Shown here: positions 27,679 to 38,936 of the stretch, piece by piece
Layout of the letters: each line of letters opens with the position of its first letter
How positions within the stretch are numbered: the first letter of the stretch is position 1
Origin: a candidate division WOR-3 bacterium
GTDB lineage: Bacteria; Hydrothermota; Tepidihabitantia; Tepidihabitantales; CAIPLT01
Direction of reading: 5' to 3'
DNA length: 53,820 nt
Assembly (NCBI GenBank): GCA_026418155.1
Contig: JAOABV010000003.1
Location: 1-53,820 of the forward strand
Notes under the pieces: model-generated
What the model was told of the DNA's origin: nothing
Database searches by the model: none
The model's input: the letters and a program-made list of their open reading frames with translations, nothing else
Translations under genes and position numbers: made by a program

Positions 27679-30600
27679 TTAATATCTTCTTGCCTTTACT
27701 GCTTTTTGCCAATTGATTTTAGTTTCTGAAACAGACTTTAGTTCTTTCATCGTGCCAATTGCTATCCAGTTAAATTGGACATTGTTTTCGCCAGTCCATC
27801 CTAAAATTGGTTTTAATTGAACTTTGAATCCTTGAACATTTGTTTCTTTCACAATTAACATTCCAATTGGGTCTCCCATAGGTGTTATGTGGATAATGAT
27901 AGGTAGATCACTGCGCACATTTTCGGTAAATACCTTATCAAAATAGATTGTGCTATAATCATCTGTAATTTGACCCATTCCACAAGTAATTATTTTGCGC
28001 TCCGAACTAACAACTGAATAGGCAGGACCATTGTCAGTTGCAGTTACCCAACCGCCGGTAGCAAAACCAGTGCCATAAGCGTAAATTGCGGTATCAGACT
28101 GGGAATCTTCAAATGCATGCGCAATTATTGCCGGCGCGTCTTCTTCTCCTGCCCAGAAAATACCGCCAACATTATTTCCCCAAACATCTAGACCAACATC
28201 ATCCGCAACAAAGACATAAAGACCAGCGGTTCCGGCTTGATGTACATAGAACCCACTTTGACCAGCATTACCAACACTAACGCCGTGAACAGAAGGTTCT
28301 TGTATATAAATTCCGTGTTCATCTGCTTTTCTAATATTGACACCTGAATAACCACAGGAATCAATAATTATACCGTTTTGACTGCTTGATTCAATATTAA
28401 CACCATTAGCGCCAACACTACCAATATGAATGCCGTGATTATTTGCTTGAGTTATTCTTAATCCATTATCACCGGCGTGATGAACAACATAAGCATCACC
28501 ACCTGAATTATAAACAAAGACACCGGCACCAACAGATTGATTAATATTTAAGCCATTGACCATTGTTTTATTCACATTTAAACCGCAACCTCCGGCACTA
28601 TCAATATAAAGACCGTCACTGTTCGGTTGCCAGATATAAATCCCTGCCCAGTTTGTTTTGCCAATATTTAGACCATCTTGGCCAGCATTACTGACTACTA
28701 AACCCGCACGCTTAGCATTTTCGACAATAATACCTTCACCACCAGCATTAATAACTTTAATACTATTACCTATGCCGTTATTTTTGATATTTAACACTGT
28801 ATGTTCAGTTGAAGTTTCTAAAGTGCAAGGCAAAGATATATCGATACCTTTTATTGAATTATCTAAAATTTTTGGGGAATTGACGGCATTATTGGCAATT
28901 ATGGGATTGGGATAAGTTCCAGTCAAATCACCACCAGCAGGACCTGAAGGCGGACCACCGGCACCGACACCAACACTGTCATTTGCTGGCGCCCAAGTTG
29001 AACCATTCCATTTAATAACTTGACCTATTGTTGCACCTGATTGCGCAATTTTTGCCATTGTGACATTACCATCAATAATCATATTAGATGATATTGAATT
29101 CGACTGACTTTCATCAACAAATTTACCGCTTAAGGCAATTGTGTCTTTACCTTGTAACTTATGAGTATTATAAGCATTAACCGCTATCCTTGAGCTATCG
29201 ACATAAGTGATACTCACATTTTTTGCATAATCTGAAGTATCCGCAAATGGTGCTTTGAAACTTGCTGATACATCCTGGCGTAAGATTGTGCCATCTTGAA
29301 TCTTTCCTGTTGTAATCGCGTTATCAGCGAGCATGGGATTTGTTATCGCATTTACCTGTCCTTCATCTATAAACTTCGTACTCAAGGCAAGTGTATCTTT
29401 ACCTTGTAGTTTGTGCGCATTGGCAGAAACTCGGGCTGAATCAATTGCACCAGGTAAATAACGAGCATAATCTGCAGTATCAGCCAAAGGTGCTTTGAAT
29501 GTTACAGAAACATCACCACGAGTTATCGTACCATCTTGAATCTTATCCGAAGTTATTGCATTACTGGTTATCATTGCATTCGAGATAGAATTGGCTTGGC
29601 CTTCATTTACATATCTTGAATCTAAAGCAGTAGTATCTTTACCCTGCAATTTATAGGCATTAGTTGCAATTCTTGCGCTATCCACATAAGGAATATTTAC
29701 ACTTCTTACATAATCTGAAGTATCAGCATAGGGTGCTTTGAAATTTGAGGCAACATCCTGTCTTAAAATAGCACCATCTTGAATTTTTGAACTTGTCACT
29801 GCATTGTCTTGAATTTCAGAAGTATTTACAGGTGGCGTTAAAGGACGTGTTGCCGGTGTAAATGACAAATCAACCATTTGAATTGTGCCATCTTGAATTT
29901 TGGCAGAATTAATCGCATTATCAACAATCATTGAATTTGTAATCGCGTTAATTTGACCTTCATCAACATATTTAGCACTCAGAGCGGTTGTATCCTTACC
30001 TTGTAATTTGTATGTGTTATAGGCATTGACTGATATTTGAGCGCTATCAACATAATTATGAGTATGATTTGAAAGAGAAAATGCTGATGAATGTTGTCCG
30101 TCTAACAAATCAGCATTAAGATTAGTTATTAATGTACCTGTACCAGAAAGTTTTGTATCTGATATTCCTGCAGTCGCTGATATGTCACTATTAACAATCG
30201 CGCCATCAATAATCATTACCGAGGATACTGAATTCGATTGTCCTTCATCAACAAACTTATTGCTTAAACCAATTGTATCTTTACCTTGTAATCGGTGCGC
30301 ATTGGCAGAAACTCGGGCTGAATCAACTGCTCCGAGTAAATAACGAGCATAGTCTGACGTATCAGCAAATGGTGCCTTAAAAGCAGGTGAGACATCTTCA
30401 CGTAAAATTGTATAATTTTGGATTTTAGTAGTTATTACCGCATTATCTTGAATTTCAGATGTTGCCACACCTGGTGTGATTGGTCTTATAACCGGTGTAA
30501 ATGCTAAATCGGAAATTTGAATTGTGCCATCCTGGATTTTGTCTGTAGTTACGACATTGGCACCAAGTTCAACATTAGTAATTGGTGGTGAAATTGGACG

Positions 30601-31086
30601 AATTAACGGTGCATATTCGGCGCTCTCAGCTTTTTTAGCTAAATAAGAATACGCCGAACTCGTAAGTCTAATTCTTGGAGACATTGGCGGATTATTTCCA
30701 ACTTGCATCTCTAAATAACAGTTACCAGATTCAGGTATACTTTCGATGGGCACGACCGAACCTAAAATCACATTGAAGATACCATTAATAGTTTGCACCG
30801 ATTGAGTTTCAGTCCAAAAAGCGGTTGAGCCGATTGCCGTCTGATGTAAGCGAAAAGTAATTGAGTATTGACTATCAGGCACTGGCGCTCCTGCCAGATT
30901 GGTTAATTTCCCTTGGTAATTGAGCATTTTAGGAATAGTGATGATGTTCAATTGATTTATCTCATCTGATAATATTTTTTCTGGTTTGTTTTTTAATTGT
31001 TTGTCTATATGGTTTACTTTGATATTTTCTAATGCCCAAACCGAAGCGATTAGAACTAATATGGTGGTTATTATATTTTTAACCAT
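27679..31086 (-). CDS. large exported repeat protein with 20 decapeptide repeats
   Basis: 1135 residues. Signal peptide at 1-19. Residues ~50-160 are a domain seen in many secreted proteins (LNYQGKLTNLAGAPVPD ... PRIRLTSSAYSYLAK). Residues ~165-670 are five or so longer repeats, each with KIQDGTI, R-x-DV, FKAPFADTSDYA, YVDSARI and LQGKDT..L, like phage-tail or spike segments. A hinge (GGDLTGTYPNP) leads to 20 tandem decapeptides of the form G-Phi-x-Phi-x6 and a C-terminal beta domain (KIITCGMGQIT to WIAIGTMKEL). Probably a cell-surface fibre or adhesin-like solenoid; no catalytic site is seen. GGAGG precedes the ATG. A decayed paralogue lies at 32.1-32.8 kb. Confidence 0.85.
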   Translation of the reverse strand: MVKNIITTILVLIASVWALENIKVNHIDKQLKNKPEKILSDEINQLNIITIPKMLNYQGKLTNLAGAPVPDSQYSITFRLHQTAIGSTAFWTETQSVQTINGIFNVILGSVVPIESIPESGNCYLEMQVGNNPPMSPRIRLTSSAYSYLAKKAESAEYAPLIRPISPPITNVELGANVVTTDKIQDGTIQISDLAFTPVIRPITPGVATSEIQDNAVITTKIQNYTILREDVSPAFKAPFADTSDYARYLLGAVDSARVSANAHRLQGKDTIGLSNKFVDEGQSNSVSSVMIIDGAIVNSDISATAGISDTKLSGTGTLITNLNADLLDGQHSSAFSLSNHTHNYVDSAQISVNAYNTYKLQGKDTTALSAKYVDEGQINAITNSMIVDNAINSAKIQDGTIQMVDLSFTPATRPLTPPVNTSEIQDNAVTSSKIQDGAILRQDVASNFKAPYADTSDYVRSVNIPYVDSARIATNAYKLQGKDTTALDSRYVNEGQANSISNAMITSNAITSDKIQDGTITRGDVSVTFKAPLADTADYARYLPGAIDSARVSANAHKLQGKDTLALSTKFIDEGQVNAITNPMLADNAITTGKIQDGTILRQDVSASFKAPFADTSDYAKNVSITYVDSSRIAVNAYNTHKLQGKDTIALSGKFVDESQSNSISSNMIIDGNVTMAKIAQSGATIGQVIKWNGSTWAPANDSVGVGAGGPPSGPAGGDLTGTYPNPIIANNAVNSPKILDNSIKGIDISLPCTLETSTEHTVLNIKNNGIGNSIKVINAGGEGIIVENAKRAGLVVSNAGQDGLNIGKTNWAGIYIWQPNSDGLYIDSAGGCGLNVNKTMVNGLNINQSVGAGVFVYNSGGDAYVVHHAGDNGLRITQANNHGIHIGSVGANGVNIESSSQNGIIIDSCGYSGVNIRKADEHGIYIQEPSVHGVSVGNAGQSGFYVHQAGTAGLYVFVADDVGLDVWGNNVGGIFWAGEEDAPAIIAHAFEDSQSDTAIYAYGTGFATGGWVTATDNGPAYSVVSSERKIITCGMGQITDDYSTIYFDKVFTENVRSDLPIIIHITPMGDPIGMLIVKETNVQGFKVQLKPILGWTGENNVQFNWIAIGTMKELKSVSETKINWQKAVKARRY
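28135..28734 (-). repeat. 600-bp block of 20 x 30-bp units encoding decapeptide repeats
   Basis: Exactly 20 units without a length change, from GIIVENAKRA to GIFWAGEEDA. Examples are GLVVSNAGQD, GLNIGKTNWA, GIHIGSVGAN, GVNIRKADEH. Position 1 is Gly in 19 of 20 units (one begins AYVV), and positions 2 and 4 are nearly all Ile, Val or Leu. The DNA units have diverged, so the repeat is old and held at protein level. Confidence 0.9.
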
Positions 31087-32054: not shown

Positions 32055-32830
32055 CTATTTATCTTTTTCTTCAGATGTGGTTGCTGGCTTTTTATACGTA
32101 CTAATCGCAATCTTGTCAAAAAAACAAATTGGTTTTATTACTCCAACCATAAATTTGTTTAAGGGAAACGCTAAATCCGTCGGACTTGCTTTGATTACCA
32201 TATAATTGAGTACTCGGCTCTGGTTTAATTGTATGAATCGAACGGGACATAAGGCAGTCATTGTAAAATCAGGACTGACAATACAGAGCAATTTTTTACC
32301 TTTTAATGATTTACTCAACTCACAAGTTACAATTCTTTTATTCCAGGCCATTATTGTAGTATCAGGTGTATTATTTTGATATGCAGTAACATTTAAACTT
32401 CTGCGGCAGTAGTTGTTAGGTCTCGAAAGATACGGCGATAATAGTACCTGCTACATTAATGTCGAAATTCACTGGATTAGTGGCACAAACTCCATCATAA
32501 TTAGCTTAATCAATAAAAATAGTACGAGCACCCACATTATTAATCTGAATTCAATTATCAACTACATTCATTCCTTTTAGCACTGGATCACTGCGACCGA
32601 CATAAAAACCGACTCCTGCAGCACTATCAACATATACTCTGGTGTCGCCAACATAAGAAATATATAATCCATTCAGACCTACTTTATGTACATAAAAAGG
32701 CCGCAATTATTCGTTTCACTGATATTAATTTTTATACTGGCGATATTTAGACAATCCTACGCCGTTATCAGTCATGCGCATAATTCTCATACGCGTATCC
32801 TTCTGAACTATCAATTCTGAAATTAGACAA
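32055..32830 (-). pseudogene. decayed paralogue of the C-terminal part of the 1135-residue repeat protein
   Basis: Translated in shifting frames, this stretch gives MTDNGVGLS, then NIASIKINISETNNCG, GLNGLYISYVGD, VYVDSAAGVGFYVGRSD and INNVGARTIFID, which follow the decapeptide pattern of the intact gene. It ends in RIVTC ... SKSDG-like text and an ISTYKK end that lines up with the KIITC ... IAIGTMKEL domain. In-frame stops interrupt it near 32552, 32504 and 32416, and at least two frame changes are needed (near 32686 and 32730). No start is present. The last 98 codons (32351-32055) are still open. Confidence 0.75.
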
Positions 32831-37656: not shown

Positions 37657-37727
37657 TAAATACTATCGATACCTAAAGGTCTTTGTTTAATTACATAAAC
37701 GAAAATTCGCAGGGTAAAACAAAGCGA

Positions 37728-37806
37728 GGCGACATATATTTGTTGTCGTCAATTCTATACTTTTTTGGCGAAAGGCCAAGAAGCGATAGAATTATTTTCT
37801 GGGAGG
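37728..37806 (+). promoter_or_regulatory. structured 5' leader ending in the ribosome-binding site
   Basis: Two adjoining hairpins. GGCGACA (37728-37734) pairs with TGTCGTC (37744-37750). AATTCTAT (37751-37758) pairs perfectly with ATAGAATT (37786-37793), and inside it TTTTTTGGC pairs with GCCAAGAAG around a GAAAG loop. The second hairpin ends 7 bases before the GGGAGG ribosome site (37801-37806). It does not match a riboswitch class I know. Confidence 0.5.
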
Positions 37807-37811
37807 CCTTG

Positions 37812-38936
37812 GTGAAAAAGAACCAAACAACAGCAATAATCATTTTAGTATTAACTTTAATAGGTTTGATTTATGCCAGTGAATATCCCGGTGCAGTTTT
37901 TTTGATGATATGGCCTGGAGCTAGGCCGACGAGTTTAGGTGGTGCTTTTGTGGCCATTGCTGATGATGCCACAGCACCTTATTATAATCCTGGTGGTCTG
38001 GGATTTTTGAATAGCAGTTATGCTACTTTGATGCATTCTAATTGGTTGCCCGGACTTTATCCAGGAATGTATTATGAGTATTTGGGATTTAGCCACTCTT
38101 TACGAAAACAAGGAACAATTGGTTTTAATTTTATTTATTTAACGACCGGCGAAACTGATGTCATCGACCACAATGGCAATTATTTAGGTAAATACACGAC
38201 ATTTGATGTTGCAATTAGTGGTAGTTATGGATTTAAAGCATCGCCTAATGTCGCTACTGGTTTATCAGCAAAATTTATCTATTCATATCTTGTGCCCGAT
38301 TGGGTCTTTGGAGCAATTGAAGAGTTGCGAGGCACTACTGGTGGAATTGGTATGAGTTGGGCTTTTGATGTTGGTGTCTTATATAAACCGTTGAGATATT
38401 TATCAGTAGGTGCTTCACTGGCTAATATTGGTCCTAATATCTCATTTTCAACCAGTGGTGAATCTGACCCATTGCCCAGAATGTTAAGATTGGGTGTAAA
38501 ATATACACCGGTGGAAAATCAGATTATAAAAGTGAATATTACACCAGAAATTACTAAGGTACTTGTTGGAATGTTCTATGACCCAGACGAAGAGAAGACT
38601 TTTGCCCAAGAGTTGAATTATGAGATCTGGTCTGCCTGGAAGAGTTTAGGGATAGAAGCTTGGCTCTATGACATATTTTCTATCCGCATCGGCTATTTTG
38701 AAGACCTTGAAGGCGCTCGAGGCGGCATCAGAATTATTGATGTTTCTGGTGATGAGCGATATTTATCTTTACCAAAGTATCTTTTTACTAAACACGGCGG
38801 GAGATTCAATAAAATCGGTTTGACTTTTGGTATCGGTGTCCATTATCGGGGATTTCAAATTGATGTGGGCAATGACCAGATGATATATGATTTTGAAACT
38901 TCTAATTACAAATTTTCATTCACATACCGTTTTTAA
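37812..38936 (+). CDS. PorV/PorQ-family outer-membrane beta-barrel protein
   Basis: 374 residues from a GTG at 37812 with GGGAGG 5 bases upstream; the longer in-frame extension runs through the folded leader and is not used. Signal peptide VKKNQTTAIIILVLTLIGLIYA, then the family hallmark GARPTSLGGAFVAIADDATAPYYNPGG, then repeated beta strands, ending in the aromatic FSFTYRF typical of outer-membrane barrels. Related to the protein at 4.3 kb. purA follows after 15 bases, an odd operon partner. Confidence 0.88.
   Translation: MKKNQTTAIIILVLTLIGLIYASEYPGAVFLMIWPGARPTSLGGAFVAIADDATAPYYNPGGLGFLNSSYATLMHSNWLPGLYPGMYYEYLGFSHSLRKQGTIGFNFIYLTTGETDVIDHNGNYLGKYTTFDVAISGSYGFKASPNVATGLSAKFIYSYLVPDWVFGAIEELRGTTGGIGMSWAFDVGVLYKPLRYLSVGASLANIGPNISFSTSGESDPLPRMLRLGVKYTPVENQIIKVNITPEITKVLVGMFYDPDEEKTFAQELNYEIWSAWKSLGIEAWLYDIFSIRIGYFEDLEGARGGIRIIDVSGDERYLSLPKYLFTKHGGRFNKIGLTFGIGVHYRGFQIDVGNDQMIYDFETSNYKFSFTYRF

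Follow-up and report, generated by a model that had tools for sequence, protein, structure and literature searches.

A probable MAT-like adhesive fiber with a decapeptide-repeat stalk in a candidate division WOR-3 bacterium

What kind of protein is built around 20 decapeptides in tandem is the question raised by positions 27679-31086 of the window, by which we mean the whole 53,820-nucleotide stretch (contig JAOABV010000003.1) from the 1.74 Mb draft assembly (GCA_026418155.1) of an uncultured candidate division WOR-3 bacterium. The interval is open on the minus strand, where it encodes the 1135-residue protein P0001, and the plus strand is riddled with stops. A first-pass annotation, made from the sequence alone, had proposed an exported fiber with a perfect 20 x 10-residue solenoid. 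The repeats are real, regular and outside the described families searched, and the best reading of the present data is that the overall build is that of a trimeric fiber like the mosaic adhesive trimers (MATs) of Bdellovibrio. We assign a probability of roughly 0.62 to P0001 being an exported, homotrimeric, MAT-like adhesive fiber in which decapeptides form a beta-helical stalk and the tip is lectin-like. The features of the gene are collected in Table 1.

The array comprises 20 uninterrupted, gapless decapeptides of the pattern G-[VIL]-x-[VI]-x-x-A-G-x-[DN], their number being as first annotated, "perfect" being an overstatement in that glycine occupies position 1 in 19 of the 20 (the exception is AYVVHHAGDN). 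A possible degenerate 21st unit lies ahead of it (residues 775-784). Sequence identity within the array is 0.285 at lag 10 and 0.03-0.11 at lags other than multiples of 10; at lags 20, 30 and 40 identity (0.24) does not rise above the lag-10 value, and the array is therefore without a superperiod. G/A-Phi-x-Phi units follow one another 20 times without a break, whereas the longest such series was no more than 5 when this segment was shuffled 5000 times. Across P0001 and its relatives, 420 repeats taken from 43 arrays yield the consensus G-[IVL]-x-[IV]-x-x-[A/P/T/S]-G-x-[DN], which bears out the glycine at position 1 and the aliphatics at positions 2 and 4 that had been noticed before and extends them with A, P, T or S at position 7 and frequent glycine at position 8; position 9 is mostly D, S, G or N. 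Charged residues account for 0, 0 and 1% at positions 2, 4 and 7, of which the first two belonged to the repeat selection rule and position 7 did not. Because G-Phi-x-Phi and an uncharged position 7 are kept over hundreds of repeats while other positions vary, the pattern looks selected.

This conservation bears on the proposal that the array lacks structure and only spaces the domains, its regularity being left by tandem duplication, for which the widely varying repeat number among relatives and the similarity of adjacent repeats (lag 1) could be cited. Two AlphaFold2 (AF2) runs were made, the first on residues 765-1117 with 17 sequences and the second, full-length run on residues 20-1135 with another alignment, and in both models the predicted local distance difference test score (pLDDT) reaches about 70 or higher for the greater part of the array. 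With the G-Phi-x-Phi pattern and position 7 also held over hundreds of repeats, we consider a structureless spacer very unlikely.

The decapeptide matched no Pfam or NCBIfam family, in agreement with the earlier remark that its period is unlike those of pentapeptide, hexapeptide and usual beta-helix repeats, and no convincing match for the stalk was found among the protein families and solved structures searched. A PHROGs search gave single-member weak matches only, and among literature titles and abstracts no decapeptide beta-helix or 10-residue triple beta-helix was found described. Legionella DotG/IcmE shares 10-residue repeats with an AG pair, with a match at chance level (E 0.3), but lacks the G-Phi-x-Phi strand motif and is a type IV secretion component. 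Pentapeptide repeats follow A-[DN]-L-x-x, with a central Leu or Phe every five residues, and the decapeptide could in principle be a stretched pentapeptide-repeat (Rfr) quadrilateral beta-helix with two pentapeptides per unit. The family profile does match designed pentapeptide proteins (the beta1 series, E 1.3e-6), but these are very regular and the match looks compositional; no Pfam pentapeptide family was found for any of 17 members at E <= 0.1, identity at lag 5 is at background (0.068), and position 9, the expected place of the central residue, is the one mostly filled by D, S, G or N. We reject membership of the pentapeptide repeats because of the missing 5-residue period and the non-hydrophobic position 9, and we regard the stretched Rfr helix as barely credible.

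A profile of stalk plus tip matched 35 of 147 genomes of the host phylum and all 17 examined genomes of a second phylum, part of these matches being tip-only or repeat-only. The decapeptide repeats belong to a large family, so far undescribed, that spans WOR-3 and the second phylum. Array length ranges from a few repeats up to 54 while the tip stays aligned, as would be the case for a spacer. The longest array, with 54 consecutive decapeptide-type units, belongs to a gene of the second phylum (L097, 441-3347, minus strand), the tip of which is different but related-looking (SFNNYIVD...APISASTARWLEHIGE). In another relative (L058, 6020-8044, minus strand) units of 9 and 10 residues are mixed, and the turn can therefore lose one residue; autocorrelation of units other than 10 residues long gave no clear signal. 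A phage or plasmid origin was considered and rejected, as tblastn gave no match in phages or plasmids and none was found in viral contigs.

At the opposite end of the protein, behind a hydrophobic, signal-like N-terminus (MVKNIITTILVLIASVWA, read from the translation), residues 39-165 searched alone match the NCBIfam model Bdello_MAT_N (NF053851; E 2.2e-6, 27.6 bits). The same model is matched by 42 of 42 aligned homologues including P0001, each searched alone (best E 9.8e-11), and by the N-domains of decapeptide proteins from the second phylum (E 3.4e-6 and 5.6e-6); across 60 genomes of the host phylum no match exceeded the curated 60-bit cut-off. In the full-length AF2 run this region comes out as a well-folded domain of beta type, with pLDDT mostly 73-93. 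It is joined to various ends. A cluster of three N-domain genes in one WOR-3 genome (L069, on contig C60 of G018) carries three different ends, namely decapeptides plus tip, Peptidase_S74 (PF13884, 1e-8), and YadA-like GG-N-ASG repeats followed by another end. According to the study of the MATs of Bdellovibrio bacteriovorus, which are prey-binding fibers, all 21 of these proteins have a beta domain of ~130 residues directly behind the signal peptide, followed by varied ends, 13 of the 21 end in S74, and Peptidase_S74 is a chaperone of trimeric phage spikes (PMC10769870). P0001 and its relatives share with the MATs a signal peptide (putative in P0001), a conserved beta-rich N-domain, a long fiber and varied ends including S74. 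They differ in that the P0001 relatives all score under the family cut-off, in that the genome of the window (G000) has two N-domain genes against 21 MATs in Bdellovibrio, and in that the decapeptide array and H-type-lectin-like tip are not described for MATs in the accessible part of that study (PMC10769870). As judged by sequence comparison, P0001 is probably a distant homolog of the Bdellovibrio MATs, its family showing MAT-type construction rather than family membership. The combination of a MAT-type N-domain with a mosaic family suggests a trimer.

The second N-domain gene of the host genome (L077, contig C58, 1319-2074, minus strand) has one in-frame TGA in the N-domain and continues through YadA-like repeats to an end of another kind; an adjoining open reading frame ends, judged by eye, in a stretch resembling a sorting domain of the type IX secretion system. 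A further relative of 1875 residues (L076, 5230-10854, plus strand) combines numerous linker repeats of the LQGKDT type with dozens of GG-N-ASG units resembling those of YadA, and is predicted to form a very long fiber.

The distinct beta domain that had been placed after the array corresponds to a confidently modeled beta tip (residues ~1028-1117, pLDDT mostly 79-94 in the first AF2 run). Its Foldseek matches are the H-type lectins SLL-2, Helix agglutinins and discoidin II and phage fiber tips such as AP22 gp53, with probabilities of 0.90-0.99 across ~80-110 tip residues and target TM-scores of 0.42-0.53; sequence identity to the H-type lectins and the AP22 gp53 tip is only 12-19%. The LKA1 gp49 tailspike is also among the tip matches, and among predicted viral structures the tip matches tail proteins best, gp53-like and H-type-lectin entries among them. 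Several sub-threshold matches to PF21882, the Pfam family of gp53-like phage tail fiber tips, fall on relatives' tip domains and extend to the last position of the profile. A lectin-like adhesive role for the tip would follow naturally from its modeled fold.

Strand pairing within the stalk differs between the two AF2 runs. In the first run pLDDT is 80-88 over most decapeptides and DSSP assigns no strand within the array, whereas the second has roughly one strand per ten residues, at pLDDT 70-82. Since main-chain hydrogen bonds in the triple beta-helix of T4 gp34 are exclusively inter-monomer (PMC5537660), a confident array without in-chain strands fits one chain of such a helix, and we give three intertwined chains about an even chance. 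In a rival version of the same adhesive fiber, every chain would wind separately into a beta-solenoid, a coil taking two or three decapeptides, and the main contacts between chains would lie at base and tip, as they do in phage tailspikes; this is near the reading of the first-pass annotation. The strands of the second run would agree with this, as would the best PDB match of that model, the LKA1 gp49 tailspike (438 columns, E 7e-5, probability 0.80). Set against it are the first run, which is the more confident over the array and lacks in-chain strands, and the low TM-scores to the LKA1 tailspike (about 0.1). When repeats are perfect, AF2 is known to predict solenoids too readily (PMC11795689). 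Adjacent repeats (lag 1) resemble each other most, with weak similarity at lag 2 and none at lag 3, and the missing lag-3 signal is a weak argument against three repeats per single-chain coil; such stack-lag statistics are not decisive for stalk topology. We give single-chain coils a smaller but appreciable chance and assign the remainder to neither form. Of the "narrow beta-solenoid" first proposed, the beta-type repeat domain is supported, but on a single-chain solenoid the two AF2 runs disagree; the notion of an exported fiber built like a phage tail fiber or tailspike is supported by the AF2 models and the Foldseek matches. That annotation missed the MAT-type N-domain, the mosaic family, the lectin-like tip and the large repeat family.

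For an intertwined stalk, the triple-stranded beta-helices of T4 gp5, gp34 and gp12 are the closest parallels drawn here. These share with P0001 short strands with inward aliphatics and small-residue turns, and they too form the stalk of a receptor-binding or piercing fiber protein. T4 gp5 has an 8-residue VxGxxxxx repeat (PMC4576200) and gp34 is without a clear motif (PMC5537660), whereas the P0001 unit, for which a triple-stranded topology is tentatively proposed, has 10 residues with two inward aliphatics. LKA1 gp49 is a beta-helical spike too, and its fold matches both stalk and tip, but the TM-score is low, identity is 11%, and it is a phage tailspike as opposed to a presumed bacterial adhesin.

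Several observations weigh against a trimeric, lectin-tipped fiber of this kind. Where reported, MAT_N scores are 20-33 bits against the 60-bit cut-off, and the matches usually span only positions ~11-77 of 162. The structure matches behind the lectin likeness of the tip have weak E-values (0.01-0.2); the H-type lectin family PF09458 was unmatched in P0001, in 17 stalk-plus-tip relatives and in the host genome, and PF21882 stayed below cut-off on the tips of relatives (best 19.8 versus 24.9 bits). The in-chain strands of the second AF2 run correspond to a single-chain solenoid, and the lag-1 signal may stem from local duplication or composition drift. Trimerization of P0001 is argued by analogy, and no export route was found for it. 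A type V trimeric autotransporter was rejected because the Pfam search gave no C-terminal membrane anchor, the C-terminus being tip plus basic tail, and type IX secretion cargo because NCBIfam gave no C-terminal sorting-domain match at E <= 1.

We envisage that monomers of P0001 would be exported by Sec and would then trimerize, perhaps nucleated at the tip, which may help to set the register of the three chains. The N-terminal beta domain of ~110 residues would serve as a base at the cell surface, with the linker repeats acting as a spacer beyond it. The 20 decapeptides would build a stiff beta-helical stalk whose length is set by repeat number. Every unit would supply a short strand (G-Phi-x-Phi-x) plus a turn (xAGxD), and residues 2, 4 and 7 would point inward; we tentatively favor the intertwined triple-stranded form. 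The H-type-lectin-like tip would contact a glycan-bearing surface or another ligand.

Table 1. Features of the P0001 gene and of a decayed copy nearby (window coordinates).
Feature	Coordinates	Strand	Evidence
Whole gene, probable MAT-like fiber protein P0001, 1135 residues	27679..31086	minus	Open reading frame and translation; MAT_N match; relatives
Signal-peptide-like N-terminus, residues ~1-19, without lipobox cysteine	31030..31086	minus	Read from translation
N-terminal domain (putative base), residues ~50-160, probable distant relative of Bdello_MAT_N	30607..30939	minus	NF053851, E 2.2e-6; pLDDT mostly 73-93
Linker, residues 161-765, with five long repeats that carry LQGKDT, KIQDGTI and FKAPFADTSDY modules	28792..30606	minus	Motif positions
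20 decapeptides, residues 785-984, predicted beta-helical stalk	28135..28734	minus	Periodicity, shuffles, AF2
Neck joining stalk and tip, residues 985-1027, conserved GxG[YF]ATGGW motif	28006..28134	minus	Alignments A1 and A2
Tip, residues ~1028-1117, H-type-lectin / phage gp53-tip-like beta domain ending F-x-W-I-A-I-G	27736..28005	minus	pLDDT, Foldseek
Basic C-terminal tail, residues 1118-1135	27682..27735	minus	Sequence; low-confidence helix at C-terminal end of model
Decayed second copy, stop-interrupted decapeptides (32455-32784) then tip fragment (32119-32238)	32119..32784	minus	Profile A1, tblastn

The linker contains the roughly five long repeats previously seen ahead of the array, LQGKDT occurring five times, all before the array, along with six KIQDGTI-type and four FKAPFADTSDY-type motifs, one NADLLDG...HTH motif and one GGDLTGTYPNP motif. 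Its pLDDT in the full-length AF2 run is about 30 over most of its length.

The neighboring genes (SurE, radical SAM, SIMPL, rpiB and an aminotransferase) look unrelated to the fiber. Upstream of the intact gene, between the SIMPL and rpiB genes, sits the decayed copy, which was matched by profile A1 (E 3.6e-7, 5 stops inside) and in collinear order by tblastn of P0001 (E 0.011 and 0.001). Such stalk-and-tip genes thus appear to duplicate and decay in place. Elsewhere in the window, 37683-38936 (plus strand) encodes a PorV-like outer-membrane protein (PF19572, 1.2e-9), a possible type IX secretion component.

WOR-3 bacteria have very few cultured members and, to our knowledge, are not known as predators. 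We tentatively propose, at somewhat less than even odds, that the decapeptide is a new strict code for a triple-stranded beta-helix, comparable to the T4 gp5 octapeptide, in a MAT-type system outside the known predators, in WOR-3 and at least one other phylum. If so, it would provide an extensible stalk of up to 54 units, perhaps ~25 nm at one strand rise per unit. Should the stalk be triple-stranded, the decapeptide would be a simple building block of adjustable length. Arrays of 20 to 54 units occur in nature and open the sequence-to-structure rule to direct testing. Extension of the MAT logic to WOR-3 and a second phylum would mean that this is perhaps an old, general bacterial plan for adhesins and not a specialty of predators.
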